This document shows, one piece after another, positions 12,187 to 30,180 of a stretch of DNA of 36,033 bases. Below the pieces are notes generated by a model, which was not told where the DNA came from, ran no database searches, and was given only the letters and a program-made list of their open reading frames with translations. The first letter of the stretch is position 1; the number at the start of each line of letters is the position of its first letter. The translations under genes and the position numbers were made by a program. The DNA is from Gammaproteobacteria bacterium (GTDB lineage: Bacteria; Pseudomonadota; Gammaproteobacteria; Xanthomonadales; Rhodanobacteraceae), in assembly GCA_021325195.1 (NCBI GenBank), contig JAJPHQ010000074.1, positions 1 to 36,033 of the forward strand, given 5' to 3'.

Positions 12187-12279
12187 TAGAATGCCCGCTC
12201 ACCCCGCAACCCGGAGGGGGTGATCGTCGTGCTCCGCACGATGGATCCTTGAAAAACGCGGGCAGAGATGGCCCGCTTT
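12187..12279 (+). promoter_or_regulatory. tRNA-Val upstream region: -10 box and two hairpins, possible small RNA
   Basis: TAGAAT (12187-12192) is followed by the GC-rich GCCCGCTC, as in stringently controlled stable-RNA promoters. A TTGACG lies upstream but at 22 bases, too far for a standard -35. Downstream are a hairpin at 12224-12244 (9 pairs, two G-T) and a second, GCGGGC/GCCCGC at 12258-12276, followed by TTT. This may be the leader of the tRNA transcript, or a short RNA of about 80 bases ending at the second hairpin. Confidence 0.3.
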
Positions 12280-12304: not shown

Positions 12305-12379
12305 GGGCGCGTAGCTCAGCGGTAGAGCACTACCTTGACATGGTAGGGGTCACAGGTTCGATCCCTGTCGCGCCCACCA
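12305..12379 (+). tRNA. tRNA-Val (anticodon GAC)
   Basis: The 75-base sequence includes an encoded CCA. The acceptor stem GGGCGCG pairs with CGCGCCC, the D-arm is GCTCAGCGGTAGAGC, the anticodon stem CTACC/GGTAG encloses TTGACAT with anticodon GAC, and the T-arm is ACAGGTTCGATCCCTGT. It reads GUC/GUU valine codons. It stands alone, convergent with the last gene of the polysaccharide operon. Confidence 0.97.
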
Positions 12380-12415: not shown

Positions 12416-13651
12416 TCATTCGCCCGGACGTTCCCGACCGGGAAGCGCGGCCATCCGGCGCATCTTCCGCGCCGGCGCCAGCAACCGCCGATACACCGCC
12501 AGCGTGCGGGCGATCACGATGCGCTCGTCGAACTCCGCCAGCGCCTTGGCGCGCGCCGCCTGCCCCAGCCGCGCGGCCAGACCGGGATCGTCCAGCAGAC
12601 GCGCGATCGCGCGCGCCAGCGCACCGGCATCGCGAGGCGGTACCAGCAGGCCGTCCACGCCGTCGGTGACGACTTCGCGGCAACCCGGCATGTCGGTGGT
12701 GACCAGCGGCAACGCGCAGGCAGCCGCCTCGATCAGTGATTTCGGGACGCCCTCGCGGTAGTAGCTGGGCAGCACCATGAGATCCACCGATTCGTAGAGC
12801 GCGCGCATGTCCTCGACGTGGCCTAGCCACTCCAGCACGCCCTGCTCCGCCCACTCGCGCAAGCTCGCTTCCTGTACCGCGGCCGGGTTGCCGGGATCGG
12901 GGGTTCCGGCCAGCAGAAAGCGCACCTTGCGTCCCTCCGCGCGCAGCAGACGCGCGGCCTCGGCGTATTCCGCCACGCCCTTGTCCCACAGCAGACGCGC
13001 CGCCAGCAGCACGCGTGGCGTCGAAGGCGGTGCAGCGGAAGGCGGACGCGGGGCGAATCGCGAGCAATCCACGCCCGAGCCGGGTATCAGATCGATGCAG
13101 CCGGCCTCGACCAGTCCGGACCGTTCGAACAGGTCGCGATCGTCCGGGTTCTGCAGGATCAACCGTGCGCCCCGTCCGCGCAGGGCGAGGCGCAGCAGCG
13201 CGCGGACCACCGGACGCAGCAGCCGCGCCTTGGCATCTCGACTGGCAAACACGTAGCCCAGCCCCGCCACCGCGTTGATCCGTGCCGGCACCCGCGCCAG
13301 CCGGGCCGCGAGCGAGCCGTACACCGCGCACTTGATGGTAAAACCGTGCACCAGCGCGGGCCGTTCGCGCCGGAACAGGACGAACAGGCTCCAGAGCAGG
13401 CGTGCCTCGCGGAAGGGATTGAGGCTGCGCCGGTCCAGCGGCACCGGCTGCCAGCGGAGGCCCAGTCCGCGCAGCCGCGGCCCGTATTCGCCGGGCGGCG
13501 ACAGCAGCAGCACGTCATGACCCGCCGCCTGCAGCGCGAGCGCCAGCGAACGGCGGAAGTTGTAGAGATACCAGTCGGTGTTCGCGAACAGCGCCACTTT
13601 CGCGCCGCCGTGGTGCGGGGTGCCGGGAGACGCGGGAACGTCGCGTGGCAA
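12416..13651 (-). CDS. GT4-family glycosyltransferase, last gene of the polysaccharide operon
   Basis: This 411-residue GT-B enzyme probably adds a sugar from a nucleotide donor to the lipid-linked repeat unit at the inner membrane. The N-terminal domain (KVALFANTDWYLYNFRRSLA, then HGFTIKCAVYG and INAVAGLGYVFAS) resembles the PglA/CapM-like branch. The C-terminal donor domain has RLLWDKGVAEYAEAARLL, LPSYYREGVPKSLIEAAACA and TTDMPGCREVVTDGVDG, the E-x7-E type motif of GT4. Sugar specificity cannot be read. The start is a TTG at 13651, supported by GGGAG seven bases upstream; a GTG at 13597 would remove a non-conserved N-terminus. It follows the secreted-protein gene by 18 bases and converges on tRNA-Val. 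Confidence 0.85.
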   Translation of the reverse strand: MPRDVPASPGTPHHGGAKVALFANTDWYLYNFRRSLALALQAAGHDVLLLSPPGEYGPRLRGLGLRWQPVPLDRRSLNPFREARLLWSLFVLFRRERPALVHGFTIKCAVYGSLAARLARVPARINAVAGLGYVFASRDAKARLLRPVVRALLRLALRGRGARLILQNPDDRDLFERSGLVEAGCIDLIPGSGVDCSRFAPRPPSAAPPSTPRVLLAARLLWDKGVAEYAEAARLLRAEGRKVRFLLAGTPDPGNPAAVQEASLREWAEQGVLEWLGHVEDMRALYESVDLMVLPSYYREGVPKSLIEAAACALPLVTTDMPGCREVVTDGVDGLLVPPRDAGALARAIARLLDDPGLAARLGQAARAKALAEFDERIVIARTLAVYRRLLAPARKMRRMAALPGRERPGE

Positions 13652-13669
13652 GGCCGTGCTCCCGCTGCG

Positions 13670-14776
13670 TCACGGCAGTCCGTTCGCGGCGCAGGCCATG
13701 CGCACGCGGTGGATCGCATCGACGTATTGCCGGAAATCGGCGGCGACGGGTCCCTTGCCGTAAGGTCCGTCGGTCTGCCACGCGCTGCCCTTTCCGTAGA
13801 TCCACACGTAGCGCTCCGCCAGCCCGAACGCCTCCCGCAGGCGGCGTTCGAACTCGTCCGGATTCTTGCGGCCGGACTTGTCGCCGTAGGAAAGTCCCAG
13901 CGGCCACAACCCCGGCGCCACGCTGAAATCCTCCGGCTTCACCGGAACCGCATCCAGCAGCGCCGCGTACTGCTGCTCCGCCTGCCGCATCGAAGGAATG
14001 ATGTGCCCGTTGTAGGTCTGTTCGGTCGCCAGCACGACGTGCTTCCACGGCACGGACAGCAGCCCCCGCACGACCGGCACGGCCAGCCCGTAACCGCCGT
14101 TGCTCAGCCGGTTCGGCCTGCCCGCCAGCCACTGCATGCCGGCCTCGAGTTTCTGCTCGAACATCCGGTCGCGCTGCGCTTCCAGCAACACGTCCGGAAG
14201 CACGATGAGCGTCATGTCGGGATAGGCCTGATGCATGGCCTCGCCGATCGCGCGGCCCGTCTGCTCCACCGTGGCCGCGAGTTCGGGGCCGCCCGCGCCA
14301 GCACCCCACGCCGGCTGGTGCGGCTCCAGATCCAGCGCGATGCCTTTCAACCCCGCGTAACGGGCCAGCGCGGCGGCGTGCGCGAAGTGCTCGACCACGG
14401 CCGCGTTCTGATCGGCGTCGTGCCAGTCGTGCCCCTTGTAGAGCGCGACCTTGATGAAATTGTCGGTGACCCCGTACTGCGCGTAGAGGGTCTGGAACCG
14501 CCGCAAGGCCTGCCACAACGCACTGCCGGGGTCGGTTCCCACATCGACCTGCCAGTAGGCCATCGCGTTGTTCACGAAGAATCCCTGCACGCCGACGGTG
14601 CGGCCCCAGTAGGCCGCCTGCTCCGGATTGATCTGGGTGCGGTAATCGACGCCATCGAACATCAGGAGCCTGGGGCAATCCGCCCCGGCCGGGGCGCAAC
14701 AGGCGCACAGGAACAGGGCGAGCCAAGCCATCCACCGGGTCTTGTTGCTTCGCCGACGATTCGCGAACCCGTTCAT
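13670..14776 (-). CDS. Secreted protein of unknown function, possibly TIM-barrel glycoside-hydrolase-like
   Basis: The 368-residue product has a basic start (NRRRSNKTR), a hydrophobic core (WMAWLALFLCACCAPAGA) and a probable cleavage near Ala33, so it is exported. I do not recognise the family. Features that suggest a carbohydrate-active barrel are the strand-end acidic motif GIALDLEPH (Asp149, Glu151), TLIVLPDVLLEA, VVLATEQTYNGH (Glu252) and YVWIYGKGSAW near the end. In a polysaccharide operon such a protein might cut or trim the polymer in the periplasm. That is an inference only. The ATG overlaps the stop of the preceding methyltransferase (ATGA), so translation is coupled. Confidence 0.75.
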   Translation of the reverse strand: MNGFANRRRSNKTRWMAWLALFLCACCAPAGADCPRLLMFDGVDYRTQINPEQAAYWGRTVGVQGFFVNNAMAYWQVDVGTDPGSALWQALRRFQTLYAQYGVTDNFIKVALYKGHDWHDADQNAAVVEHFAHAAALARYAGLKGIALDLEPHQPAWGAGAGGPELAATVEQTGRAIGEAMHQAYPDMTLIVLPDVLLEAQRDRMFEQKLEAGMQWLAGRPNRLSNGGYGLAVPVVRGLLSVPWKHVVLATEQTYNGHIIPSMRQAEQQYAALLDAVPVKPEDFSVAPGLWPLGLSYGDKSGRKNPDEFERRLREAFGLAERYVWIYGKGSAWQTDGPYGKGPVAADFRQYVDAIHRVRMACAANGLP

Positions 14777-15471
14777 GCCGCCTCCGCATGCACGGACGCC
14801 GTTTTCGATTTCAGCAGGAAAACCATTTCCTGCGAGATCGCGGGCGCGATCCAGACCCGATCGACGATCTCGAATGCCGGTTCGAGTTCAGCGCACGCCT
14901 GTTGCTTGCTGCAGAAGCACAGCGAGCCGTGCAGGCCGCCGAAGACCGCGGCCCGCGCGGCACGGCGCAGCTTGTGGAAGCGGTTCTCGATGCCGAACGA
15001 AACGATCGCGCAGCGTGCCACGCGCGCGAATTCGTCCAGCATCTTCCGGCGCAGCGCCGCGGGCACCCGGTGCATCAGCCGCAGGCACACGACCACCTCG
15101 AATTCGCCGTCGCCGAAGCCGGACAGATCGCCTGCGTCCTCGACCCGGAAGGCGACGCGCCCGTAGCCGATCCGCGCGTATTCGGCCTCGGCCACCTTCA
15201 GCATGCTCGCGGAAACATCGGCGGCGACCACCCGGGTTCCCAGCGCGGCGAAAGTCTCCGCGAGCTTTCCCGTGCCCGCCGGGATGTCCAGCGCGGTACG
15301 GTGCGGAACCCGCGCCAGCAACGATTCGATCGTGCGCCGCTCCCGCCGCGCCACCAGCCGCGAGGGCAGATTCCGCCAGCCGCTCGGCGCCGCGAACATC
15401 CGGTGATAGCGCTGCGCGATGGTGTCGTCCTGGTAGAACTTCCTGGTATCGCGCTCGTAATCAAAATTCAT
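14773..15471 (-). CDS. Class I SAM-dependent methyltransferase
   Basis: The 232-residue product has a Rossmann-type methyltransferase core: motif I ALDIPAGTGKLAETF, motif II VVAADVSASMLKVAE, and DAGDLSGFGDGEFEVVVCLRLMHRV for motifs III-IV. It probably methylates a sugar or a lipid-linked glycan, judging by the operon; nothing in the sequence fixes the acceptor. The ATG at 15471 overlaps the end of the upstream kinase-fold gene by 11 bases. It ends in an ATGA overlap with the secreted-protein gene. Confidence 0.85.
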   Translation of the reverse strand: MNFDYERDTRKFYQDDTIAQRYHRMFAAPSGWRNLPSRLVARRERRTIESLLARVPHRTALDIPAGTGKLAETFAALGTRVVAADVSASMLKVAEAEYARIGYGRVAFRVEDAGDLSGFGDGEFEVVVCLRLMHRVPAALRRKMLDEFARVARCAIVSFGIENRFHKLRRAARAAVFGGLHGSLCFCSKQQACAELEPAFEIVDRVWIAPAISQEMVFLLKSKTASVHAEAA

Positions 15472-16363
15472 GGTTCGCCACCCATTTTTCGAGTTGCCGG
15501 AAATACAGCCCGAGGTAAGGCCGGCCCAGGACCCGTTTCGCGCCGGGCATGCCGCGCAGCGCCTTTTCCGCGAAATGCCTTCGCATCGCCACGGTTTCGT
15601 GCAGGAAGTAATTGAGCAGGGTCCGGTCGAGCCTGCGGCCGGAAGCCGTCTCGTAACCCGACAGCAGTTGCGCGGCGTCGAAGCGCTGCCACACCTTCAG
15701 CGAACCGCCGCTGCCCCAGTTGATCATCAGCAGGGAAATCACGAACCGGGCCACGTCGTCCTCCGGCATGCCCAGATACACGTGCTGCGGATCGAAAAAG
15801 CACCAGCCGCCGCGATCGCGATCGAACCGGAAATTCCTGGCCTCGAAGCCGCCGATGAAGAGCGTCCGCTCACGGCCGGCGATGCGCCGGACCACGTCCC
15901 GGCCGGGGACCAGATATCCGTCGTGGAGGTAATCCTTGAGCGGATAATCCAGCGCTTCGCCCGGCGCGGCGTGCAGCGCGGCCAGCAGCGTCATGGCTTC
16001 CCGCAGCGCGGCGGTCCGTTGCGCGTAGGAGGTGCCGCGCCGCCGCAGCAGCTCGCGCATGTCCGGGCCCGCGAGGTACGGGTACACGACGCAGGCGTGA
16101 TCCCGCCGCAGCGGGCAGCACACGCGCCGGCACAGGCGGTGCAGCAGCAGCATGTCGGCGAACTCGCGGCGGGCCTTGTCGATGCACAAGGAGTCCAGCC
16201 AATCCTGCGCCGGATCGTCGCTGCGGCGAAAGATCTTGTAGAACCTTCCCTCCGACGACGCGATCCACGATTCCTTGCGCGCCGTGAAGCTCAGCGCGGC
16301 GATTTCGCCCGCAGCGGCCATCGGGGACGCGTCCTTGCGGGCGTGGACGGCCGTGTCGATCAT
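15461..16363 (-). CDS. Kinase-fold protein with degenerate catalytic loop
   Basis: The 300-residue product looks like a small protein-kinase/APH-fold domain. Lys43 (RFYKIFRR) may be the nucleotide-binding lysine, Glu67 (ARREFADM) the helix-C glutamate, and VYPYLAGPDMREL the hinge. The catalytic loop expected as HGDxxxxN reads IGGFEARN (170-177): the asparagine Asn177 is kept, but the aspartate five residues before it is glycine, with Glu174 nearby. A metal-binding aspartate (Asp191, FFDPQH) is present. It may be a lipopolysaccharide-kinase relative with altered chemistry or a pseudokinase with a binding role. The ATG at 16363 overlaps the upstream methyltransferase stop (ATGA). Confidence 0.7.
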   Translation of the reverse strand: MIDTAVHARKDASPMAAAGEIAALSFTARKESWIASSEGRFYKIFRRSDDPAQDWLDSLCIDKARREFADMLLLHRLCRRVCCPLRRDHACVVYPYLAGPDMRELLRRRGTSYAQRTAALREAMTLLAALHAAPGEALDYPLKDYLHDGYLVPGRDVVRRIAGRERTLFIGGFEARNFRFDRDRGGWCFFDPQHVYLGMPEDDVARFVISLLMINWGSGGSLKVWQRFDAAQLLSGYETASGRRLDRTLLNYFLHETVAMRRHFAEKALRGMPGAKRVLGRPYLGLYFRQLEKWVANHEF

Positions 16364-17259
16364 GCCTGCGCCTCCCGGCCGGCCGCGGCGCGGCTTGACC
16401 CGGGCGCTGCCGAAACCCCCGGCTCCCTGCGGAACGCGTACTGATCGCAGCTGGTCCCCATGAGGCCCCTGAGCGGATTTCCGCGCCGGTGGAGAAACTC
16501 GCGTTCCACCGCGAAGCCCAGCCTCGCCAGCAAGGCATGGCATTCGTCCGGGCTGATCGACTGGTAGGGATAGCCGCCCAGCCAGTCGTGGACGTCGTTG
16601 TAGAAATCCATGCCGCGGTGTCCGTAATTCCGGACGTAGGCATCGAAATCCTTGCTCCGCAATGCGAAATCCAGCCTGCGCAGGAAGATGAATGCAGCCA
16701 TCGCGCGCCGCTGGGAGGCGGGAGACGCCTTCGAATACCAGCGCTTGAGCACGCGCCACATCCCGCAAAACGGCGTCTTCCGGTACAGCGCCAGATAAAA
16801 CTCGCCGCCCGGTCCGACCAGGGCCGCGGCGGTTTCGACGGCCCTGACCATGTCGCCGGTGTGGTGCAGCACGCCCCACGAATGGACGATGTCGAAGCTG
16901 CCGAACTCGACCGGCTGCATGTCGAACACGCTGCACACCCGGAAATCCGCCGGAAAGTCCGGCGCGAAACGCGCGAACACCTCCCTCGCCGCCCGCACGG
17001 AATCGGGATCCAGATCGACACCCGCGACCCGGCTTGCGCCCAGCCGCGCCGCCGCCAGCGCGGACAACCCCGAGCCGCAACCGATGTCCAGGAAGCTCCG
17101 TCCATCCAGCCGCTGCCGCCCGCTCAGGCTGCGCAATCCCTCCACGGCCCGGGCTATCTTCGCCTCGTCGATCTTGCTTGCGTAATCCAGCCAGTTCCGG
17201 CCGAAGGCGAAATGGGATCGCTGCTCGAGCAGGTTTTCCCGCTTCAGCATGATGCTCAT
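16360..17259 (-). CDS. Class I SAM-dependent methyltransferase
   Basis: The 299-residue product has motif I FLDIGCGSGLSALAAARLGA, then VAGVDLDPDSVRAARE and FDIVHSWGVLHHTGDM, the UbiE/Coq-like pattern of small-molecule methyltransferases. A long C-terminal part (about 170-299) with YNYGHRGMDFYNDVHDWLGG-like residues (NYGHRGMDFYNDVHDW) and GYPYQSISPDECHALL is seen in methyltransferases of polysaccharide clusters. The likely acceptor is a sugar of the repeat unit. The ATG at 17259 has a strong ribosome binding site (GAGGAGGTG) and overlaps the asparagine-synthase stop. It ends in an ATGA overlap with the kinase-fold gene. Confidence 0.85.
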   Translation of the reverse strand: MSIMLKRENLLEQRSHFAFGRNWLDYASKIDEAKIARAVEGLRSLSGRQRLDGRSFLDIGCGSGLSALAAARLGASRVAGVDLDPDSVRAAREVFARFAPDFPADFRVCSVFDMQPVEFGSFDIVHSWGVLHHTGDMVRAVETAAALVGPGGEFYLALYRKTPFCGMWRVLKRWYSKASPASQRRAMAAFIFLRRLDFALRSKDFDAYVRNYGHRGMDFYNDVHDWLGGYPYQSISPDECHALLARLGFAVEREFLHRRGNPLRGLMGTSCDQYAFRREPGVSAAPGSSRAAAGREAQA

Positions 17260-19265
17260 GCCGTCACCTCCTCGTGCAGGGATGTCCGGTTGCGCGCGTT
17301 CTCCGACAGCCACGCCTGGAACATCAGCACGTCCCACAGGCGGCCGCCTTCGTTCACCCTGCCCGCCACGTGGTCGGCCAGCATGTTCCTGACGTAACCG
17401 GGATCGAAATAGCCTTCCTCGCGCAGGCGCCGCGCATCCAGCAGCGCTTCCGCCCAGTCCCGCAGCGGTCCGCGCAACCACGCGCCGATCGGCACTCCGA
17501 AGCCCTGCTTGGGACGATCGATCAGGTGCCGCGGCACGTGCCGGTACAGCACCTGCCGCAGCAGCCACTTGCCCTGTCCGTGCCGGACCTTCTGCCGCAT
17601 CGGCACGCGCCAGGCGAATTCCACGACCCGGTGATCGAGCAGCGGCACGCGCGCTTCCAGGCTCACCCTCATGCTGGCGCGATCGACCTTGGTCAGGATG
17701 TCGCCGGGGAGATAGGTCACCAGATCGCTGTACATCATCCGCTCGATGATGTCGTTCACGCACGGACCCAGTTGCGGATCGTCGAGCTCGGTCGCGGGTT
17801 CGCGCGCGTGCAGCACCACCGCGGCCGGGTTCCGGATGTGCGACATCAGCAGGCGGTAACGCTGTTCCTGTTCGCCCGCCTCGAGCATCCCGGCCAGCAC
17901 GCCCACCTTGGACTTGGGACGCTTCAGCCGCATCCGCGCGGGCAGGCAGCGGTTGGCGCCCTCCAGCAGCGATTCGTAGAAACCCGCGTGCCGCCTCAGC
18001 GAGCCGGCCGCGCGGCCGCGCAGAGTGCCCGGCATCCAGTGCAGGCAGCGTTCGATGTCGCGGGCCTTGAAGTAGCGGAGATACCCGCCGAACAGCTCGT
18101 CGCCGCCGTCGCCCGACAGGCTCACCGTGACTTCGCCGCGGGTAAGCCGCGACAGCAGGAAGGTCGGCACCTGCGAGGAATCGGAAAACGGCTCGTCGAA
18201 GATCTCCGGCAGCTTCGGCACCACGTCCAGCGCGTCCTGTGCGGTGACGTACAGTTCGTGGTGCTCGGTGCCGAGATGCCGCGCGACCGCACCGGCATGC
18301 ACGGCCTCGTCGTAACCCTTCTCGTGGAATCCGATCGAGAAGGTCTTCACCGGCCGCGCCGACTGCGCCTGCATCAGCGCGACCACCGTCGAGGAATCCA
18401 CGCCTCCCGAGAGGAACGCGCCCAGCGGCACGTCCGCCTCCATCCGCAGGCCCACCGCGTCGCGCAGCAGCCGCTCGAGTTCGTCGACGGCCTCGGCGTC
18501 GGACAGGCGCAGGCGATGGGTCACGCCCGATTCGGCCGCTTCGCGGGCGGACCAGTAGGTGCGCGTCATCGCGGCGAGCACCGCTTCGCCGGGCCGCGTC
18601 TTCACCAGCTCGCTGCCCAGCGTGAGCATCGTCCCCGGCGCGAGCTTGTGAATGTCCTGATAAATGGAGTGAGGCGCGTTGATGTAGTTGTGGCGCAGCA
18701 GCAGGCACAGCGCGCCGCGATCGACGGGATTGGCGAAGCCGGGCATCCGAGTGATCGCCTTCAACTCGGACGCGAACACCAACAGCGGACCGACCCAGCC
18801 GTAGTACAGCGGCTTGATGCCCAGGCGGTCGCGAACCAGCGACAGCGAACGCTCGCGGCGGTCCCACAGCGCGAACGCGAACATGCCGATGAAGCGCTTC
18901 ACGGCCACCTCGAGGCCCCACTGTTCGATCGCGGCCAGCATCACCTCGGTGTCGGAATGTCCCCGGAACGTCGCGCCCAGCGCGGCGAGTTCCCGGCGCA
19001 ACTGCCGGTGGTTGTACACCTCGCCGTTGTAGATCATCACGAACCGGCCGCTGGCCGACGGCATCGGCTGGTGTCCTTCCGGCGACAGGTCGATCACCGC
19101 GAGGCGCCGGTGCCCCAGCGCGATGCCGGCGGACGCATCCTGGAAGAACCCTTCGTCGTCGGGGCCGCGATGGCGCAGCGCGGCGGTCATGCCGCGCACG
19201 ACGGCGCGCGCTTCCTCCGCGCTGAAGCGGTGGCCCGCGTCCCAGAATCCGGCGATCCCGCACAT
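17256..19265 (-). CDS. asnB: Asparagine synthase-like glutamine amidotransferase
   Basis: The 669-residue product has the AsnB architecture. The N-terminal Ntn glutaminase domain has nucleophile Cys2 (MCGIAGFWD), RHRGPDDEG, and YNGEVYNHRQLR. The C-terminal ATP-binding synthetase domain has the pyrophosphatase loop LSGGVDSST (285-293), SGDGGDELFGGY and DILTKVDRASM. Such enzymes hydrolyse glutamine and use the ammonia to amidate an adenylated carboxylate. Within polysaccharide clusters, relatives such as WbpS are thought to amidate uronic acids, so the acceptor here may be a glycan carboxylate rather than aspartate. The sequence alone does not separate these options. The ATG at 19265 is fixed by Cys2. 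It follows the GT4 stop by 2 bases. Confidence 0.9.
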   Translation of the reverse strand: MCGIAGFWDAGHRFSAEEARAVVRGMTAALRHRGPDDEGFFQDASAGIALGHRRLAVIDLSPEGHQPMPSASGRFVMIYNGEVYNHRQLRRELAALGATFRGHSDTEVMLAAIEQWGLEVAVKRFIGMFAFALWDRRERSLSLVRDRLGIKPLYYGWVGPLLVFASELKAITRMPGFANPVDRGALCLLLRHNYINAPHSIYQDIHKLAPGTMLTLGSELVKTRPGEAVLAAMTRTYWSAREAAESGVTHRLRLSDAEAVDELERLLRDAVGLRMEADVPLGAFLSGGVDSSTVVALMQAQSARPVKTFSIGFHEKGYDEAVHAGAVARHLGTEHHELYVTAQDALDVVPKLPEIFDEPFSDSSQVPTFLLSRLTRGEVTVSLSGDGGDELFGGYLRYFKARDIERCLHWMPGTLRGRAAGSLRRHAGFYESLLEGANRCLPARMRLKRPKSKVGVLAGMLEAGEQEQRYRLLMSHIRNPAAVVLHAREPATELDDPQLGPCVNDIIERMMYSDLVTYLPGDILTKVDRASMRVSLEARVPLLDHRVVEFAWRVPMRQKVRHGQGKWLLRQVLYRHVPRHLIDRPKQGFGVPIGAWLRGPLRDWAEALLDARRLREEGYFDPGYVRNMLADHVAGRVNEGGRLWDVLMFQAWLSENARNRTSLHEEVTA

Positions 19266-19267
19266 GG

Positions 19268-20392
19268 TCAATGCTCCTGTGCCACGGTGGAATACAGGCT
19301 GGCGTAGCGGCGCGCGCGGAGGCTGTTGGTGTAGCGGTCGATCACGCGCCGGCGCGCGCGCAGGCCCAGCGCGCGCCGTCCCTCGGCGCCGAGCGCGGCC
19401 AGCCTCGCCCAGCCCGCGCTCAGCGCTGCGGCGTCGCGCGGCGGCACCACCTCGCCGGTGTCGCCCACGATCACGGACACGTCGCCCACGTTGGTGGCCA
19501 CACACGGCACGCCGCAGGCCATCGCTTCCGCCACCGCGTTGGGAAACGCCTCGCCGCGCGAGGACAGGGTGGCGATGTCGAACGCCGCGTTGAGCGCGGG
19601 GATGTCGGTCCTGCGCCCCAGCAGGCGCAGGTGCGTGCGCAACCGCGCGTCGCCGATCAGGGCGTCCAGGCCGGGGTTGTCAGGCGAGGCGCCCTCGCCC
19701 ACCAGCACGAAAAAGGCGTCCGGATGGTCGCCGAAGAAGTGCGCGGCCGCGCGCAGGAAATTGCCGTGATCCTTGGTCGGATGCACGCGCGCCACCATGC
19801 CGATCACCAGCGCGTCGTCCGGCAGCTCCAGCTCCGCGCGGATCCGCGCGCGCGCGTCCGGATCGGGGGCGAAGATCCGGGTGTCGTAGCCGTTGGGAAT
19901 CACCGCCGTGCGCGCCTTGCAGAAGCCGTAGGTCTCGTGCTGCGAAGCGCTGACGTGCGAGGCGTACAGGATCCGACGCGGCCGCGAGGACAGCAGCGCG
20001 TTCAGCCGGATCACCGCGCGCGTCCTGCGCTTGTCGGTGGCGATGTCGGTGAGGGAATGGTGCACGCTCCACAGGTGCGGCACGCGCTCCGTCCACACCG
20101 CCAGCGTGGTCATCAGGTGCGCGTGGTACATCCAGGCGTGCACCAGGTCCGCGGCCTCGTGCCGCAGCACCTGGCGCAGCCGCGCCACGTCGCCCGGCCC
20201 GGCCCGGCCCGGCCGCATGCCGAGGTGGTGGGTGGCGGCGGATTCGGACACCCGCGCGCTCAGCGCCGCCTCGCCGCCCAGCACCACCACCGCGTGCTCG
20301 AACTGCGGCGGCCGCAGCGATTCGAGCAGGCGGCACAGTGCGATTTCCGCGCCGCCCGAACCCAGCCCGGTGATGACATGGCAGATCTTCAT
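19268..20392 (-). CDS. GT4-family glycosyltransferase
   Basis: The 374-residue GT-B enzyme starts MKICHVITGLGSGGAEIALC, the nucleotide-sugar transferase pattern with the GGAE loop. It continues with LVHAWMYHAHLMTTLA, a donor domain VIGMVARVHPTKDHGNFLRA, and the signature SSRGEAFPNAVAEAMACGVP followed by VATNVGDVSVIVGDTG. It lacks membrane segments and probably works on the cytoplasmic face. Specificity is unknown. The ATG at 20392 gives the family start; the frame is open upstream without family sequence. It lies 19 bases after the methyltransferase gene. Confidence 0.9.
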   Translation of the reverse strand: MKICHVITGLGSGGAEIALCRLLESLRPPQFEHAVVVLGGEAALSARVSESAATHHLGMRPGRAGPGDVARLRQVLRHEAADLVHAWMYHAHLMTTLAVWTERVPHLWSVHHSLTDIATDKRRTRAVIRLNALLSSRPRRILYASHVSASQHETYGFCKARTAVIPNGYDTRIFAPDPDARARIRAELELPDDALVIGMVARVHPTKDHGNFLRAAAHFFGDHPDAFFVLVGEGASPDNPGLDALIGDARLRTHLRLLGRRTDIPALNAAFDIATLSSRGEAFPNAVAEAMACGVPCVATNVGDVSVIVGDTGEVVPPRDAAALSAGWARLAALGAEGRRALGLRARRRVIDRYTNSLRARRYASLYSTVAQEH

Positions 20393-20411
20393 GCGGAGGG
20401 AATCCCGAATC

Positions 20412-21110: not shown

Positions 21111-21112
21111 CG

Positions 21113-22333: not shown

Positions 22334-22337
22334 GGCG

Positions 22338-23564
22338 TTAGCTCGGCTCCCGGCTCGCGCAGACCGCCCGGAACGCCGCCTCGGAATTCCGCAGCAGCGA
22401 TTCCAGCGCGAAGTTTTCCACGATGCGCGCCCGCGCCATCGCGTGCAGCCGGCCGTCCGTGTTTTCCACCGCATGCAGCGTCCGCTCGACGCCTTCCGCG
22501 AACGCCGCCGGATTGCGCGGCTCGACCACCGCGCCGCAGGCGCCGACGATGCGGGCGGAATCGCCCACGTCGGTCACCACGCACGGACGGCCGCACGCCA
22601 TCGCCTCGGCCACGGTGTTCGGAAAACCCTCGCCGTAGGACGTCGAGGCGGCGATGTCCAGCGCGCTGTAAACCGCCGGCATGTCGTCCTGCGGTCCCGC
22701 CCACACCAGCCGGTCATGCAGGCCGAGTTCCGCGGCGCGCGCCGCGAGGGTTCCTGCGTACGCCGATCCGCCGCCGCCGCCCACGCAGACGAATCGCCAG
22801 CGCGGATCGCGCGCGGCAAGCATGGCGGCCGCTTCCAGGAACACGGGATGATCCTTCATCGCATCCAGACGGCCGACCAGGCCGACCAGCACCGCGTGGT
22901 CGGGGATGTTCCAGGCCTTGCGCAGGCGCGCACGGCCCGCGGCGTCGAAACGGAAGCGTTGCGTGTCGATGCCGTTGGGCACCACCCGGATGCGTTCGCG
23001 CGGATAACCCAGGGCCGCGTGATGCGCCGCGCCGGCTTCGGAATTGAAGACGATCAGGTCCGCGAAACGCGCGAGCCTGCAACTCAGCCGGAAGGTCAAC
23101 CGCGACAGCCAGTCGTAGCGGTCGCGGTCGATGTAGGACGAGCGCACGCCCCACGCGATCCGGGTGTGCCGGCTGGCGAAGCGCGCCAGCAGCGACAGCA
23201 GGTTGCCGACCGTCAGATAGCCGTGGACGAGGTCCGGATCGTGTTCGCGCAGCGTGCGCCACAACCGCCGCAGGAAGCCCGCGGTGTCCCAGCGACCGCG
23301 CTTGCCCAGGTCGATCACCGCCACGTCCGCCTGCCGCAGGTCGCGCTGGAAGGCGCCGCCGCCGTAGAAGCACGCGACCGCGACGTCCCAGCCCGCCCGC
23401 CGCAGGCCCGTCGCGAGCGCGACCAGTTGCCGCTCCGCACCGCCGCGTCCCAGCGAACGGATCAGGAACAGGATGCGCGGCCTGGCGCGATCTGCCGTGG
23501 CGGCGTCCGCCGTCGCGCTGCGCGCGCGCATCGCGACAGCGGAAGTCCCGGAGGCGCGCATCAT
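22338..23564 (-). CDS. GT4-family glycosyltransferase
   Basis: The 408-residue GT-B enzyme has an N-terminal acceptor domain ILFLIRSLGRGGAERQLVAL, a middle LVHGYLTVGNLLSLL, then RIRVVPNGIDTQRF, the donor loop VGLVGRLDAMKDHPVFLEAA, and the signature SYGEGFPNTVAEAMACGRP with VVTDVGDSARIVG. It has no membrane segment. Specificity is unknown. The ATG at 23564 is preceded by GGGAGGTG and overlaps the upstream stop; a longer open frame upstream overlaps the neighbour and lacks family sequence. The N-terminal 35 residues are alanine/arginine-rich and not conserved. Confidence 0.9.
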   Translation of the reverse strand: MMRASGTSAVAMRARSATADAATADRARPRILFLIRSLGRGGAERQLVALATGLRRAGWDVAVACFYGGGAFQRDLRQADVAVIDLGKRGRWDTAGFLRRLWRTLREHDPDLVHGYLTVGNLLSLLARFASRHTRIAWGVRSSYIDRDRYDWLSRLTFRLSCRLARFADLIVFNSEAGAAHHAALGYPRERIRVVPNGIDTQRFRFDAAGRARLRKAWNIPDHAVLVGLVGRLDAMKDHPVFLEAAAMLAARDPRWRFVCVGGGGGSAYAGTLAARAAELGLHDRLVWAGPQDDMPAVYSALDIAASTSYGEGFPNTVAEAMACGRPCVVTDVGDSARIVGACGAVVEPRNPAAFAEGVERTLHAVENTDGRLHAMARARIVENFALESLLRNSEAAFRAVCASREPS

Positions 23565-24703
23565 GCACCTCCCGCCGCGGCGGTCATGTCGCCCGCGGGC
23601 GCGCTGACCGCGGCCAGCAATGCGTTCCACTGGCCCAGCACCGACGGCAGCGAATAGAGCTTGCGCACCTCGCGCGCCCGTGCGCCCAGGCGCGCGCGCA
23701 GAGCGGCGTCGCGCATCAGGGCGTCGAGCGCCGCGACCAGCGCCTGCCTGTTACCCGCCGGCACCAGCCAGCCGTTTTCGCCGTGTTCGATCAGTTCGCG
23801 CGGGCCGGCGTCGCAATCGAAACTCACGCACGCCATGCCTTCCGCCATGGCTTCCAGCAGGGCGTTGGGAAATCCCTCGAAGCTGGACGACAGCACGAAC
23901 AGGTCCGAGCGCCGCATCGTTTCGTGGACACGGCTGTCGAAGCCGGGCAGCGCGATGCGGCCGGCGAGACCGCGCGCAGCGATCCGCCGCGTCAGGTCGT
24001 CGCGCAGCATGCCTTCGCCCACGATCCGCAGGTCCCAGCCGGGATGGCGTCCGGCCAGTTGCGCGAACGCGTCGATCAGCAGGCCGAAGCCCTTTTCCGG
24101 CGACAGCCGCCCGACCGCGAGCAGTGTCCTGCGACCCTCGCCGCTGCGCGTCGCCGCCCCGCCCGAAGCGTCGGCGGGAATCACGGCGAGCGGATTGGGG
24201 ATCACCGCGACCGGACGGTGCAGCACCGCTTCCATTTCGCAGGCGCTGCGGCGGGTCTGCACCACCACCGCGGCCGCGCGGCGGTACAGCGGTCCGTGCA
24301 GCACGCGCCAGAGACCATGCACCCAGCGCGCGCCGGGCAGGAAGGTGCGTTCGGAAACGATCACCGGCACGCGCAAGCCGGCGGCGGCGGCGAGCACCAG
24401 CACGTTGGTCCGGGTGATGAAACTGATCACGGCGTCGGGACGGCAGCGCCGGAGCGCGCGGCGCAGGGCGCGCACCCGCGCCACGTTGTTGCCGACCGCT
24501 GCCAGCCAATGTTCCGAGCCGCCCGCCAGATCCAGCGCGACGCGCTGGACCGCGGCGTCCAGCGGATACCGGTCGTGGCGCCGCGAGGCCAGCGTGATCA
24601 GCGTGACCTCGTTGCCTTCCGCGGCCCAGGCGTTGGCCAGCGCGGTCATCACGCGTTCCGCGCCGCCGCCGCCCAGCGAGGAGATGACCAGTGCCAGTTT
24701 CAT
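23561..24703 (-). CDS. GT4-family glycosyltransferase
   Basis: The 380-residue GT-B enzyme starts MKLALVISSLGGGGAERVMT with the GGAE loop. It has ISFITRTNVLVLAAA, a donor loop LLAVGRLSPEKGFGLLIDAF and the signature SSFEGFPNALLEAMAEGMA, then VSFDCDAGPRELIEHGENGWL. The closing CDAGPRELI region is typical of GT4 enzymes acting on N-acetylated sugars such as PglJ/PglH-like proteins, but that is only a hint. The ATG at 24703 overlaps the wzx stop (ATGA), and the stop overlaps the next start, so translation is coupled on both sides. Confidence 0.9.
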   Translation of the reverse strand: MKLALVISSLGGGGAERVMTALANAWAAEGNEVTLITLASRRHDRYPLDAAVQRVALDLAGGSEHWLAAVGNNVARVRALRRALRRCRPDAVISFITRTNVLVLAAAAGLRVPVIVSERTFLPGARWVHGLWRVLHGPLYRRAAAVVVQTRRSACEMEAVLHRPVAVIPNPLAVIPADASGGAATRSGEGRRTLLAVGRLSPEKGFGLLIDAFAQLAGRHPGWDLRIVGEGMLRDDLTRRIAARGLAGRIALPGFDSRVHETMRRSDLFVLSSSFEGFPNALLEAMAEGMACVSFDCDAGPRELIEHGENGWLVPAGNRQALVAALDALMRDAALRARLGARAREVRKLYSLPSVLGQWNALLAAVSAPAGDMTAAAGGA

Positions 24704-26082
24704 GCGGCTCCACCCCTCATCGCGGTGCTGCCGAACACGGACGGCTCGACGCCCAGGCGCCTGGCGACGAAGCGCCACGCCATGGCGCGCCACACCGCCA
24801 GCGACAGCACGCTGCCGACCGCCGCGCCGGTGGCGCCCAGGTGCGGCACCAGCATCACGGTCACCGCCAGATTGACGGCGACGCCGACCAGGACGAACAG
24901 CGAGGCCTGCTTCTGGTATTTCGTCATGGACAGCATGAAGCCCACTTCGCCGAACGCCGTGGTCACGCAGTAGCCGGCCAGCAGCACCAGCAGCGGCACG
25001 TACGCGACCTCGAAACCGCGGCCGAACAATTCCAGGATCCATTTGCCCGTGACGGCGAAGAATCCGGCCACGGCCAGCGCGCCCGCGAAGCTGAGCCGCG
25101 CCGCGCGGGTGGCGACGACCTGCAGGCCGGCGACATCGCCCGCGTCGTGGCGCTCGGCGATCATGGGCGCCAGCACCACGTTGACGGCCTGCTGCCCGAA
25201 CAGCGCGAAGGCGGCCATCCGCATCGCCGCATAGTAGGGACCCACGTCGCCCGTGCCCAGCAGCGCGCCGAGGATCAGCACGCTCAGCCAGTTGCCGGCC
25301 ACCACGATGATCGACAGCAGCGAGAGCTGCGACCCCACGATCGCCCAGCGGCGCAGTTCGTAGCGCGGCGCGGCGCCGCGCGCCGGCGCGGGCCACGCGC
25401 GCGACATGTGCCAGGCCGAGGCGAGCAGTGCGATCAGCGCGGCCAGCGCGCTGACCGCGGCCGCCAGCGGCGCGTCGGGGCGGCGCACGGCCAGCGCCGC
25501 GAGCGGCATCAGCGGAATCAGGATCAGCGGACGCAACACGGTCGAATACAGGTTCGTCACCGTCGCGCGCTTGAATGCGCGGTGCAGGGCGCCGCTCTGT
25601 TGCAGCTGCGTCAGGATCGGCAGCGTGGCGAAGCCGATGTAGAACGTGTCGCGCCACGCCGCGGTGTGTTTCGTGCCGAGCACGTACACCACCGCGCATC
25701 CGGCAATCGCCACGCACACGCTGGTGGCGAACACCAGCAGGCCCACGCCCAGTCGCAGGCCCAGCACCTCGCCCCAGGCGTGCTCGCGGATGTAGCCCGG
25801 CATGAAGCGCACGATGCTGATGTCCTGCCCCGCCTGCGCCACCACCGCGAGCAGGCTGACCCAGCTCAGCATCAGCGCATAGATGCCGTAATCGGCGCGC
25901 CCGGTCAGGCGCGCGATCACCAGGTTGGAAACAAAACCGAGACCGGTGCCGGCCACCGACACGAGAAACGCGCCGGAGGCCCCGCGCCGCAGCAGCCGCA
26001 GGCTGGCGGCGAGATCGTGCGCGTGCCGCGTTTCGGCGTGCACGTCCCGCGATTCCCCGAGGGCTTCCGGTGAGGAATTCAC
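24700..26082 (-). CDS. wzx: Wzx-type polysaccharide flippase (MOP superfamily)
   Basis: The 460-residue polytopic protein has 12-14 predicted membrane segments and the N-terminal pattern of polysaccharide flippases, GASGAFLVSVAGTGLGFVSNLVIARLTGRADYG broken here as FLVSVAGTGLGF and NLVIARLTGRADYGIY. Later segments include SLLSIIVVAGNWLSVLILGAL, GQQAVNVVLAPMI and VNLAVTVMLVPHLGATGAAVGS. It should move the undecaprenyl-linked repeat unit across the inner membrane. The start is a GTG at 26082, in a GTGA overlap with the upstream kinase gene and with GGAGGGG about 8 bases before it. It sits with four GT4 genes and the Wzy candidate, as expected for a Wzx/Wzy pathway. Confidence 0.9.
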   Translation of the reverse strand: MNSSPEALGESRDVHAETRHAHDLAASLRLLRRGASGAFLVSVAGTGLGFVSNLVIARLTGRADYGIYALMLSWVSLLAVVAQAGQDISIVRFMPGYIREHAWGEVLGLRLGVGLLVFATSVCVAIAGCAVVYVLGTKHTAAWRDTFYIGFATLPILTQLQQSGALHRAFKRATVTNLYSTVLRPLILIPLMPLAALAVRRPDAPLAAAVSALAALIALLASAWHMSRAWPAPARGAAPRYELRRWAIVGSQLSLLSIIVVAGNWLSVLILGALLGTGDVGPYYAAMRMAAFALFGQQAVNVVLAPMIAERHDAGDVAGLQVVATRAARLSFAGALAVAGFFAVTGKWILELFGRGFEVAYVPLLVLLAGYCVTTAFGEVGFMLSMTKYQKQASLFVLVGVAVNLAVTVMLVPHLGATGAAVGSVLSLAVWRAMAWRFVARRLGVEPSVFGSTAMRGGAA

Positions 26083-27302
26083 GGCGAGGCCCCTCCGGCT
26101 GCGTGCCCGCGCCTCGATTCCGCAAGCAGTGCGTCGAGCAGCAAGGCATCGTCGCGGCCGCCCGTCCATTTCAGCGCGGTGCCGGGAAACGCCGGCTGGC
26201 GGCAGGCGCCGCGCAACGCATACACGCACGCGTATGCGATCAGCCGCAGACGCGCTTCGCGTTCCTCGCGGTCGAATTCGCGGGTGAGCGCGTCCAGCAC
26301 GGCGGTGGCCAGTTGCGCGGGCTGCGGGCTTTCGAGCCGCATCACGGCCACCAGGTAGCGGATCAGGTCGAAATCGGCGGGGTAATCGCCGCCCGCGTAT
26401 TCCCAGTCGAACACGTACAGACGGTCCCGGTGGCGAAACGTGTTCACGGGCGTGAAGTCGCCGTGCGCGAGCCCGCGCGAGGCGATCGCTCCGGGCTGCT
26501 GCGAAAGCACGTGCAGGACGCGCCGGAAACGTTCCCGCCAGCCGTCCGACAGACGACCCGCCACGCCTTGCACCTGCGCGTGCCAAGTCTGCAGCAGGGG
26601 GTCGCCGTCTCTCGACCAGGTCGGCGCGGTCCGTTGCGCCAGCTCGTCCAGAAACGCCCGATGCAGCGCATCCGGAAGGAACGCGCGCGGCACGCGGGGC
26701 GGTGTCCCGATCGCGTCGGTGGCGAGCACCGCAGTGCCGTCGCGCACCTCGTGCAGCAGCACGCGCGGAATCAGCGCGGATTGCAGATCCAGCGCGTGGA
26801 GCGCGCGCAGGGTGGCGGCCTCGTTGGCGAGCAGGGCATGCACGTCGGGCGTGCGCGAGACCTTGGCATAGCCCCTGACGGAACCGTCTCCGTCCATGCA
26901 CTGCATCACCAGCTTGCGGTGCGGACCGGCGGTGCCGGTCATGAACGCGGCGTGCACGGCGCCGGACCCGAACACCGCCGCGATCCGGTTGATGCCCGAA
27001 ACGTACGCCCGGCCCCGCAGCCACAGTCCGGACAGGCCGAACCGGATGCTGGCCGAGGCGAGGCGCTTGAACAGGCGCGGCGTGAAGCGCAACGGCTGGA
27101 TCAGCGCCAGCGAACTCGCACACACCGCGCGCGGCCGCAGCGGCATCAGGAACCAGCGCGCATTCGCGCGTCCGGCCAGCACGCCGCAGGGTTCGCAGCC
27201 GGGGCGCGCACGTTCGGAGACATGCAGCCCCAGCGCTTCCATTTCCCGCACCGCGGCGCGCACGTGCGGATCGGAGAAGAATCCGCGCGGTCCCGCCGCC
27301 AC
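26079..27302 (-). CDS. APH/choline-kinase-type phosphotransferase
   Basis: The 407-residue product has an aminoglycoside-phosphotransferase-like fold. The catalytic loop LAHGDFTPVNTF is intact (HGD and N), followed by the metal-binding VFDWEYAGGDYPADFDLIRYL. An N-terminal lobe with GYAKVSRTPDVHALLANEAATLRAL supplies the likely nucleotide lysine and helix-C glutamate. It therefore probably phosphorylates a small molecule or a sugar of the repeat unit; substrate unknown. The exact start is unsure: a GTG at 27302 is used here, 55 bases after the wzc stop; the first 90 residues lack recognised motifs, so a later start is possible. It contrasts with the degenerate kinase-fold gene in the same operon. 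Confidence 0.75.
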   Translation of the reverse strand: MAAGPRGFFSDPHVRAAVREMEALGLHVSERARPGCEPCGVLAGRANARWFLMPLRPRAVCASSLALIQPLRFTPRLFKRLASASIRFGLSGLWLRGRAYVSGINRIAAVFGSGAVHAAFMTGTAGPHRKLVMQCMDGDGSVRGYAKVSRTPDVHALLANEAATLRALHALDLQSALIPRVLLHEVRDGTAVLATDAIGTPPRVPRAFLPDALHRAFLDELAQRTAPTWSRDGDPLLQTWHAQVQGVAGRLSDGWRERFRRVLHVLSQQPGAIASRGLAHGDFTPVNTFRHRDRLYVFDWEYAGGDYPADFDLIRYLVAVMRLESPQPAQLATAVLDALTREFDREEREARLRLIAYACVYALRGACRQPAFPGTALKWTGGRDDALLLDALLAESRRGHAAGGASP

Positions 27303-27357
27303 CGACTGCCGCCACGCCGCCCCGGCACGCGTCGCGTGTCCGTGTTGGCTGCCCGAC

Positions 27358-29574
27358 TCACTCGATGGCGGCGTATCCGTAATAGCCGTATGCGGAGTAT
27401 GTGCCGCTGCGTTTTTCCATGCCATTGAACACGACGCCCTTGATGTTGACTCCGCTCTGCCTGAAACGCTGCAAGGCCGTCTCGACCTCGCGCGACTGGT
27501 TGAGGCCGAAACGCACCACCAGCAGGCTGGTGCCGACGTGGTGGCCGATGATCGCCGCATCGGTGACCGCGAGAATCGGCGGACTGTCGATCACGACCAG
27601 GTCGTACTGCGGCGAGATCTCGCGCAGCAGCATTCCGAAACGGGGGCTCATCAGCAGTTCGGACGGATTGGGCGGCCGCCGGCCGCTGGCGATGAAGTGC
27701 AGGTTCTCGATGCCCTCCACCGGGCGGATCGCGGTCTCGAGGTCGAGGGCGCCGGCGATCAGTTCCGACAGCCCTTCTTCCGCCCGGCCGCCCAGGATCG
27801 TGTGCAGCTTGCCGTCGCGCATGTTGGCGTCGATCAGCAGCACCTTCTCGCCGGCCTGCGCGTTCAGCGCCGCGAGGTTGGCGGAGACGAAGGTCTTGCC
27901 GGCCCGTGCGGACGAACCGCAGATCATCACGCGGTTGTCCTTCGCATCGAGCTGGCCGAAGCGCAGGCTGGTGCGCAGGCTGCGCAGGGCCTCGGTGGCC
28001 AGATCCTCCGGCGCCGCCAGCGCCAGCAGGCGTTGCCGGCGCCGGGCGAACAGGCGCTGGGTCTGCTGCGAAAGCTCGAACTGCTGTTCGCTCAGCGGAA
28101 TCGCGGTATAGACCGGCAGGCCCAGGCGCTCGATCTCGGCCGGATCCTCCACGCCGCGGCGCAGCATCTGGCGCAGGAAGACGAATGCGCACGCCAGGAA
28201 CGCGCCCACGAACGTGCCGCCCAGCACGGTCACCAGTTTCCTCGGCTTGGCCGGCCTGGTGATGTCAACCGAGGGCGGATCGACGATGCGCGCGGTGCCC
28301 ACCGTGCCGGCCTGCGCGATTTCCAGTTGCTGGGCCTCGTTGAGCAGGCCGTTGTACGTGGTGTCGAGCACCTGCACGTCGCCGTTGAGGCGCAGCAGCT
28401 CCCGCTGGGTGTCGGGCAGCGTGTTCAGGCGGCTGTCGATCGCGGCCTTCTGCGCCTTCAATTGCGCGATCTGCGCCACGATGGCCTTGTAGGCCGGATG
28501 GTCGGGGGTGTAGAGACGCGCCGCCTCGATCCTCTGCGTCTCGAGCTGCTGGAGGTTGGTGCTGAGGTTGTCGAGCTGGGTGAGCAGGCTCTGGGTCTGC
28601 ATCGGCACATCCACGGAATGCGCCTTCAGCTGGAATGCGTTGAGCGCGGCCTGTGCGGCTTCCAGCTTCTTCTTCACCACCGGCAGTTGCTGCCGGACGA
28701 ACTTCAGGCTGTTGGAGGCCTGCGCCGAGTTGCGGCCCACGTTCTGTTCCAGATAGGCCTTGGTGATCTGGTCGAGCACGTCCACCGCGAGCTGCGGGGT
28801 CACGCTGTCGTAGCTCAACTGGATGACGTTGGAATCCTGCTCCGTCTGCTTGGCGACCACCGCCTTCTGCAGTTCGCTGATGGTGGTCACCTCGTAATTG
28901 CGCACGACGTGGAAGCGCATGCCCGGATTGGCGTGCATGCTCGTCACCAGCATCGTGACGCCCGAGCCCTGCGCGGGCCGGCCGACCTGTCCGTGCAGCA
29001 GCAGCCGTCCCGGCGTCAGCCGCAGAAAGCCGTCCTCCCACAGCGAGTAGCCGCCGTCGGGGCCGGCGACCAGGGTCAGTTTTCTTCCCAGCAGGTCGTG
29101 CGGCACGTCGAGCGTGGCTATGCTCAGCTGCGAACCGCCCCAGTCGTAATGACTGAGCCCCAGCCAGGGCGACGCGACATCGCCCGGCGCGGCGGCCTTG
29201 TATTGCCGGGCGATCAGGCTGCCCAGCACCGGAATCCGGTACGGGCTGACCACGATGTTCAGGTTGAGGTTGTCGACCGCCTTCTTGAGCACCGATTGCG
29301 AGGTGAGAATCGAGACCGCATCGGTGGCTTCGGGATTGGAGGCGCCCACCGCCTGCGCGACGGCCGTGAGGCCCGGCAGCGTCGGCGCCTGCTCGACCTG
29401 CACCATCGCATCGGCTTCGTACACAGGCGTGGCGACGAGGACATAGGCCAGACTCGCCACGAAGAAGATCGCGGTCACCGCGATGATCAAGCGCCTGTGG
29501 TCGAGCAGCGTCCCCAGCAGGGCGCGCAGGTCGATTTCGTCTTCGAGTTGATCGGGTTTGCTTGCAGCAGCCAT
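27358..29574 (-). CDS. wzc: Wzc-type polysaccharide co-polymerase and BY-kinase
   Basis: This 738-residue inner-membrane protein should control polymer length and export together with the Wza-type lipoprotein. It has an N-terminal membrane segment (about 29-49), a long periplasmic coiled-coil region (about 260-420), a proline motif and second membrane segment (RPAKPRKLVTVLGGTFVGAF, about 440-466), and a cytoplasmic tyrosine kinase domain. The Walker A is GSSARAGKT (553-561) and the Walker B is LVVIDSPP (Asp663). The Walker A' reads LLIDANMR: Asp582 is kept, but residue 584 is Asn where Asp is common. The C-terminal tail holds five tyrosines (726, 729, 731, 732, 734), the usual autophosphorylation cluster. 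It is the first gene of the operon and divergent from wza. Confidence 0.95.
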   Translation of the reverse strand: MAAASKPDQLEDEIDLRALLGTLLDHRRLIIAVTAIFFVASLAYVLVATPVYEADAMVQVEQAPTLPGLTAVAQAVGASNPEATDAVSILTSQSVLKKAVDNLNLNIVVSPYRIPVLGSLIARQYKAAAPGDVASPWLGLSHYDWGGSQLSIATLDVPHDLLGRKLTLVAGPDGGYSLWEDGFLRLTPGRLLLHGQVGRPAQGSGVTMLVTSMHANPGMRFHVVRNYEVTTISELQKAVVAKQTEQDSNVIQLSYDSVTPQLAVDVLDQITKAYLEQNVGRNSAQASNSLKFVRQQLPVVKKKLEAAQAALNAFQLKAHSVDVPMQTQSLLTQLDNLSTNLQQLETQRIEAARLYTPDHPAYKAIVAQIAQLKAQKAAIDSRLNTLPDTQRELLRLNGDVQVLDTTYNGLLNEAQQLEIAQAGTVGTARIVDPPSVDITRPAKPRKLVTVLGGTFVGAFLACAFVFLRQMLRRGVEDPAEIERLGLPVYTAIPLSEQQFELSQQTQRLFARRRQRLLALAAPEDLATEALRSLRTSLRFGQLDAKDNRVMICGSSARAGKTFVSANLAALNAQAGEKVLLIDANMRDGKLHTILGGRAEEGLSELIAGALDLETAIRPVEGIENLHFIASGRRPPNPSELLMSPRFGMLLREISPQYDLVVIDSPPILAVTDAAIIGHHVGTSLLVVRFGLNQSREVETALQRFRQSGVNIKGVVFNGMEKRSGTYSAYGYYGYAAIE

Positions 29575-29992: not shown

Positions 29993-30052
29993 TCGCTCCC
30001 CGCACGGAGACAAGTGATTCACTGCTTGTCGTGACGATAGGAGCGACGCGAA

Positions 30053-30127: not shown

Positions 30128-30180
30128 ACCGGTCCATGCCACGTCCCGGCCCCACCGGCGCCGCGGCCCCCGGGCCGGGA

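Follow-up and report, generated by a model that had tools for sequence, protein, structure and literature searches.

What does a densely packed run of glycosyltransferase, amidotransferase, methyltransferase and kinase-like genes in a genome of the Rhodanobacteraceae make, and has it been inherited as a whole? The run lies in a stretch of 36,033 nucleotides (Gammaproteobacteria bacterium, assembly GCA_021325195.1, contig JAJPHQ010000074.1, positions 1 to 36,033), which we call the window. It comprises fourteen genes, g1 to g14, which an earlier description made from the DNA letters alone, referred to here as the sequence-only reading, had presented as a polysaccharide operon. Based on protein families and on comparison with related genomes, we read it as the larger part of a 16-gene locus for an exopolysaccharide or capsule made by the Wzx/Wzy-dependent route, which has been inserted between tRNA-Val and glk, and we put the probability of this reading at roughly 0.75.

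Gene content and packing of the locus

All fourteen genes are present as consecutive, uninterrupted frames on the minus strand, from 29574 down to 12416. They are transcribed in the order Wzc, g2 kinase, Wzx, two GT4 glycosyltransferases, g6, g7, a third GT4, g9, g10, g11, g12, g13 and a fourth GT4. The sequence-only reading had the junctions mostly as ATGA/GTGA overlaps or gaps under 20 bases, and at 12 of the 13 the genes indeed overlap or lie no more than 19 nt apart. Overlaps of 4 nt (ATGA/GTGA) occur at six junctions (g2/g3, g3/g4, g4/g5, g9/g10, g10/g11 and g12/g13), g11 and g12 overlap by 11 nt, and five junctions have gaps of 4, 2, 19, 2 and 18 nt. The largest gap, 55 nt between Wzc and the g2 kinase, is counted with GTG 27302 as the start of g2, which is uncertain (GTG 27302 or ATG 27425). 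Similarly, the gap before g14 is 18 nt with a TTG start at 13651 and 72 nt with GTG 13597. The packing, together with the conserved order described below and the family content, supports the view that the fourteen genes form one unit for a tailored polysaccharide.

Protein families were assigned by Pfam and NCBIfam scans of the window proteins with curated cut-offs. The product of g1 (27358..29574) matched Wzc, a polysaccharide co-polymerase with a tyrosine autokinase domain (Pfam WZC_N, GNVR, Wzz and AAA_31; TIGR01007 at 168 bits, cut-off 108), and its C-terminus, read directly, is rich in tyrosine: YSAYGYYGYAAIE. The Wzx flippase is g3 (24700..26082; Polysacc_synt 1.9e-15, above cut-off; nine hydrophobic windows). 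Four GT4 glycosyltransferases are encoded by g4 (23561..24703; Glycos_transf_1 9.3e-40), g5 (22338..23564; Glyco_trans_1_4 3.1e-31), g8 (19268..20392; Glycos_transf_1 6.1e-25) and g14 (12416..13651; Glyco_trans_1_4 3.3e-33). As such, most of the Wzx/Wzy-Wzc core with four GT4 enzymes that had been proposed is borne out by family matches; for the polymerase, we infer Wzy from g6 (21113..22333), a candidate with nine hydrophobic windows and a sub-threshold PMT_2 match. The asparagine-synthase-like amidotransferase and three methyltransferases of the earlier description likewise matched their families.

Two further genes, absent from the earlier gene list, lie divergently on the plus strand: Wza, an outer-membrane export protein (30031..31371; Poly_export 3.8e-26 and SLBB; synteny), and a WecA-like polyprenyl-phosphate sugar-1-phosphate transferase, the predicted initiating enzyme (31631..32857; PF00953 1e-33, above cut-off; synteny), which scored 245 bits against TIGR02380, below the cut-off of 326. 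Eleven relatives were compared, labeled with G-numbers that denote genomes of the family Rhodanobacteraceae (G000 being the source genome). The WecA-like gene adjoins Wza in four loci (window, G161, G159, G152) and g14 in six (G014, G001, G015, G007, G003, G011). Because Wza and the WecA-like gene stay with the locus in relatives, we consider the functional unit to be 16 genes.

Wza and a Wzc with a tyrosine-rich tail point to export rather than to O-antigen synthesis. Alternatively, the locus could make a lipopolysaccharide O-antigen ligated to lipid A-core, with Wza and Wzc serving this polymer in its capsular form. Such an origin would suit the WecA-like initiating enzyme, and WbpS-type amidotransferases occur in O-antigen clusters according to excerpts of PMC7468200. 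However, Wza and Wzc are present in the locus in seven relatives whose contigs reach (G015, G014, G001, G007, G161, G159, G152), the exception being the partial locus of G031, where neither was matched in 40 kb, and the window proteins scanned include no O-antigen ligase and no separate Wzz. We therefore regard an O-antigen locus as improbable and favor an exported exopolysaccharide or capsule.

Two versions of the locus in related genomes

G001 has matches to all 16 genes, and the other relatives, where their contigs reach, to most. Gene order recurs in these genomes and the 11-nt overlap of g11 and g12 is kept in five of five relatives of the window's type (six of six loci with the window), which confirms, at the level of sequence, that the gene set is not a chance assembly. 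The notion of a set unique to the source genome was rejected; a search for it in other genomes, as the sequence-only reading had proposed, recovered related loci, and g13 is found in 12 of the 233 family genomes that were searched for g13 and g11 (8 of the 16 listed for the genus, own included). Strong matches to g11 (E below 1e-120) occur in 11 of the 233, all with g13; seven more matches were short and weak. Furthermore, we compared 80 AsnB-related loci among the matches listed, some on short contigs, and g13 was matched only in L005 (Rhodanobacteraceae FW021_bin.3) and L008 (Centralia_MAG_536), and g11 and g2 only in L008. Judging by match identities, these two correspond to the loci of G003 and G007, respectively.

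The loci fall into two versions. In version A (window, G014, G001, G161, G159, G152), g12 adjoins g11, in some loci along with g10 and g7. In version B (G015, G007, G006, G003, G011), g7, g10 and g12 have no match, and all five loci carry sulfotransferase-family genes, two in G015, G006 and G011, and one observed in each of G007 and G003. G015, G003 and G011 contain another methyltransferase, weakly matched, and G007 a different one; the AsnB-type gene is inverted relative to g13 and g14 in five of five. G001, although of version A, contains one sulfotransferase-family gene as well, along with an additional Wzx. The candidate polymerase g6 was matched in G001 and in all five version-B loci, and the loci that do not match g6 have an EpsG-family protein (G014) or a Wzy_C protein (G161, and at 78 % identity to it in G159 and G152). 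Common to both versions, where contigs reach, are the exporter, the GT4 set, the AsnB-type gene, g11, g13, g14 and the WecA-like gene. A partial locus in G031, of a third genus, contains g8, g9 and g14 together with a WecA-like protein (38 %) and a match to g13 that is split in two. Judged by gene families, the relatives exchange tailoring genes (methyl versus sulfate) and the polymerase, as in surface-glycan loci.

In L008, the same locus as that of G007, the space between the AsnB-type gene and g11 is occupied, at 8417-10438, by a methyltransferase and a family 2 glycosyltransferase; in G015, a sulfotransferase-family gene takes this place.

Mosaic history and genomic site

To describe the history of the locus, we used protein identities to the window, some over partial matches, and not trees. 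The housekeeping genes thrS and uvrB are 81-84 and 86-88 % identical to those of the window in the genus and 78-79 and 80-81 % in another genus, g22. Wzc tracks this order (71-75 % in the genus versus 66-67 % in g22), and so does g4 (62-66 %, with the G006 fragment excluded, versus 57-58 %). In contrast, g8, g9 and g11 depart from it, with 60-64, 63-68 and 49-51 % in version-B loci of the same genus versus 71-72, 77-78 and 65 % in g22. Wza is also nearer to g22 (67-72 %) than to the genus (63-66 %), as are the WecA-like gene (62-65 versus 52-60 %) and g14 (74-75 versus 68-74 %). These identities describe a mosaic pattern and not a simple split between middle and ends. A division in which both ends keep to the order of the housekeeping genes and only the middle departs is not borne out, since Wza, the WecA-like gene and g14 depart as well. 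The earlier claim that the genes are inherited and expressed as one unit thus agrees with packing and conserved order, but not with the exchange of tailoring genes and polymerase or with a nearest relative that varies by gene.

The whole locus in the window lies between tRNA-Val(GAC) on its left (12305..12379, plus strand) and the glucokinase gene glk on its right (32959..33990, plus strand). Eight tRNA-Val/glk intervals were examined. In G003, thrS, tRNA-Val, glk and uvrB lie within 2.8 kb, and in G008 within 3.0 kb, tRNA-Val and glk being about 0.5 kb apart; neither genome has any of the 16 genes at this site. In G005, tRNA-Val and glk are adjacent, and some 18 kb of other DNA, which includes a TonB receptor, separates glk from uvrB. 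The intervals of G014, G001, G015 and G007 measure 18-24 kb and match none of the 16 genes, that of G014 including a TonB-dependent receptor, a tryptophan halogenase, a GH31 gene and an MFS transporter; in these four genomes the polysaccharide locus is located elsewhere. G159 is arranged differently, with 39.5 kb between thrS and uvrB in which neither tRNA-Val nor glk was found. Taken together, the thrS/tRNA-Val/glk/uvrB interval resembles a hotspot for cargo DNA, and the locus itself has moved. An island of the integrase type was not supported, because comparison of tRNA-Val with 29501-33000 gave no attachment repeat longer than 9 bases.

The amidotransferase g9

The product of g9 (17256..19265, minus strand) is an AsnB-type glutamine amidotransferase of the WbpS/XrtA-amidotransferase superfamily (Pfam Asn_synthase 4.5e-122 and GATase). 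Its GATase_7 and Asn_synthase domains include, as read directly, an N-terminal Cys in the start MCGIAG and an SGGVDSS loop. It passes the general asparagine synthase model TIGR01536, and its relatives in the PDB are 7ylz and AsnB 1ct9. In excerpts of PMC7468200, WbpS and WbqG are placed in eps_aminotran_1 (TIGR03108) and uronamide formation is tied to wbpS-type genes; deletion of the wbpS-type gene of P. gingivalis (PGN_1234) led to loss of the uronamide. Excerpts of PMC6025236 describe a truncated glycan in a wbpS mutant of H. pullorum, with mixed support for the amide, the second sugar being given as HexNAcAN in the results and HexNAcA in the discussion. Because the superfamily of g9 includes WbpS and WbqG, which are linked to uronamide sugars, it is plausible that g9 amidates a uronic acid, which could be supplied by two UDP-sugar dehydrogenase-family genes elsewhere in the source genome.

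It is rather unlikely that g9 acts on another carboxyl, namely that of free aspartate or of a substituent (amino acid or acyl) carried by the glycan. TIGR01536 is passed as well and the locus itself has no uronic acid gene, both as such a role would have it; against this, all 12 loci compared within the family have g9 linked to glycan genes, and 61 of the 80 related loci among the matches listed have a GT4 homolog in the same stretch. Amidation of a uronic acid is accordingly retained as the plausible role of g9.

Kinase-like proteins and methyltransferases

The intact APH-type kinase of the earlier description is g2 (26079..27302, minus strand), a predicted APH-fold kinase whose motif HGDFTPVN...FDWEYAG, with HGD and DxE, has its invariant positions in 8 of 8 aligned members. 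Pfam APH was matched in five of these eight, at best 2.1e-10, the g2 of the window not being among them. Homologs of 30-36 % identity occur on six plasmid records, and both of the two inspected lie in polysaccharide-type clusters. A profile search against PDB sequences found nothing significant; the best hit was the phosphotransferase corramycin kinase 8agy (E 0.14), aligned at HGD.

The degenerate kinase-fold-like protein is g11 (15461..16363, minus strand), which has a Pfam APH match below cut-off (E 0.094). In the seven aligned members of its family, HGD is replaced by [IV][GTS]G throughout according to motif reading and a later Asp is kept; APH was matched in two of the seven, at best 0.0052. 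A profile search with g11 against PDB sequences gave no significant hit, and the profile comparison of g11 with g2 was not significant (probability 0.5 %, E 0.12), though the aligned stretch was in register at the second Asp. Considering the weak APH matches and the motif reading, we designate g11 a putative pseudokinase-like family that is conserved.

Three generic methyltransferases dependent on SAM (S-adenosylmethionine) are encoded on the minus strand by g7 (20412..21110; Methyltransf_23 4.5e-18), g10 (16360..17259; Methyltransf_11 4.9e-17) and g12 (14773..15471; Methyltransf_25 9.9e-16), from which we infer methyl groups on the glycan. Among the 11 relatives, the accessory g7 was matched at E 1e-20 in G001 only, g10 in three and g12 in five. 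The sequence-only reading had anticipated amidated uronic acid, methyl groups and perhaps phosphate. Amidation is plausible from the TIGR03108 superfamily and the link to WbpS; phosphate is weakly supported because g2 need not act on the glycan and g11 has no HGD.

The secreted protein g13

The predicted secreted protein is g13 (13670..14776, minus strand), whose one hydrophobic window is at the N-terminus. It had no Pfam, NCBIfam or significant PDB match. Six residues (D149, E151, E252, W291, W325 and W333) are invariant in 13 of 13 aligned sequences, and strand-like motifs suggest that g13 is probably a barrel-fold hydrolase. That it is instead a structural or polymer-binding protein has a chance somewhat short of even: such a role would explain why no enzyme family was matched, whereas invariant acidic and aromatic positions, which seem to be spaced like the strand ends of barrel enzymes, argue for the hydrolase. 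Wider samples of 369 genomes of the class and 398 of the phylum contained g13 in the source genome only, and no match was found in plasmid or phage records at the limits used. Both g13 and g11 are conserved, lineage-restricted families that are apparently unstudied.

Further copies of g13 occur in G015, G007 and G011, with a fragment in G006. Those outside the locus, at 14067-15245 of a joined stretch (G015) and 9658-10752 (G007), have a third-position GC below that of most neighboring frames. Apart from a partial methyltransferase (33 %) in G015, their surroundings matched no further gene of the locus.

Comparison with known systems

The sequence-only reading did not recognize the combination from described systems such as xanthan. 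It is distinct from xanthan gum and, although not unique to the source genome, it had no characterized match among the matches listed in open-licence PMC papers, which is weak evidence of absence. The gum cluster of Xanthomonas encodes an initiating glucosyl-1-phosphate transferase and pyruvyl and acetyl transferases. While both are Wzx/Wzy-type exopolysaccharide systems, the present locus has four GT4s, AsnB and methyltransferases, and the Pfam/NCBIfam scan of its 16 proteins found no gum-type initiating enzyme, ketal transferase or acetyl transferase. Set against the general gene content of group 1 capsule and colanic-acid export, the locus shares Wza and the Wzc autokinase but differs in its WecA-like initiation, its other glycosyltransferases and the lack of a Wzb among the proteins scanned. 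The uronamide clusters of P. aeruginosa O6 and E. coli O121 share an amidotransferase of the eps_aminotran_1 superfamily (WbpS and WbqG; excerpts of PMC7468200); they are O-antigen clusters, and the likeness of g9 was judged by its TIGR03108 score, which is below the cut-off.

The XrtA/PEP-CTERM clusters of floc-forming Zoogloea and Aquincola resemble the locus in AsnB-type genes, related GT4s and exopolysaccharide secretion, according to parts of PMC9012009. One could thus imagine an outpost of the exosortase system that supplies glycan for exosortase-sorted proteins, as the best NCBIfam scores are with XrtA-linked models (TIGR03108 for g9, TIGR03088 for g5 and g8) and the source genome has an exosortase. 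However, all three proteins score below the curated cut-offs and the locus has no exosortase; the one exosortase match in the source genome belongs to a separate XrtA-type locus on contig C57, where a further AsnB-type gene lies nearby. Membership in the XrtA system was rejected on these grounds, and we consider an outpost very unlikely.

A possible pathway

For the exopolysaccharide or capsule reading, the WecA-like enzyme would load HexNAc-1-phosphate onto undecaprenyl phosphate, and the four GT4 enzymes would build a repeat of about five sugars. In the cytoplasm, g9 may convert a uronic acid carboxyl to the amide and the methyltransferases may add O-methyl groups. Wzx would then flip the unit, g6 would polymerize it, and Wzc and Wza would govern length and export. 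Secreted g13, if a hydrolase, could trim or release the polymer; g2 may phosphorylate a sugar or an intermediate, and g11 may be a non-catalytic partner, perhaps of g12. Four results weigh against parts of this scheme. No significant Wzy family match was obtained for g6 in the Pfam/NCBIfam scan; g9 reached 592.2 bits against TIGR03108, the XrtA/WbpS-type amidotransferase model, below its cut-off of 816.9; g13 gave a negative result when its profile was set against four GHL15 proteins from a single genome; and the scan of the 16 proteins revealed no gene for nucleotide-sugar synthesis, so that no sugar can be named.

The general kind of locus is well known; here the decorating genes alternate between methyl and sulfate among relatives, and the conserved proteins g13 and g11 are present. 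WbdD is a fused kinase-methyltransferase. In the boldest version, which we regard as a long shot, a single backbone and export machine alternates between methyl- and sulfate-decorated polymers by cassette swap, with g13 as a dedicated secreted enzyme of a new hydrolase family and g11-g12, a split pair of kinase fold and methyltransferase, as a capping or length-setting unit, WbdD-like except that the system is of Wzy type and the kinase half non-catalytic. If the exopolysaccharide or capsule reading is right, the Rhodanobacteraceae would have a family of loci in which exporter and most glycosyltransferases are constant while the decoration is either methyl or sulfate, which would offer a natural experiment on the function of decoration. 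In addition, g13 and g11 stand out as two conserved protein families that go with the locus.

Signals and flanks

No sigma-70-like promoter was found in 12200-30200, against 1.3 expected in shuffles, which has little weight in a GC-rich genome. Downstream of the operon, a terminator-like hairpin with a T run (12258..12276, minus strand) is suggestive only, as the scan found 13 such sites with 9.7 expected in shuffles. The left flank (3852-9704 of the window) contains infC, rplT, pheS, pheT, an HU/IHF-type gene, MerR and tRNA-Pro, and resembles what we take to be the neighborhood of the Xanthomonas gum cluster.

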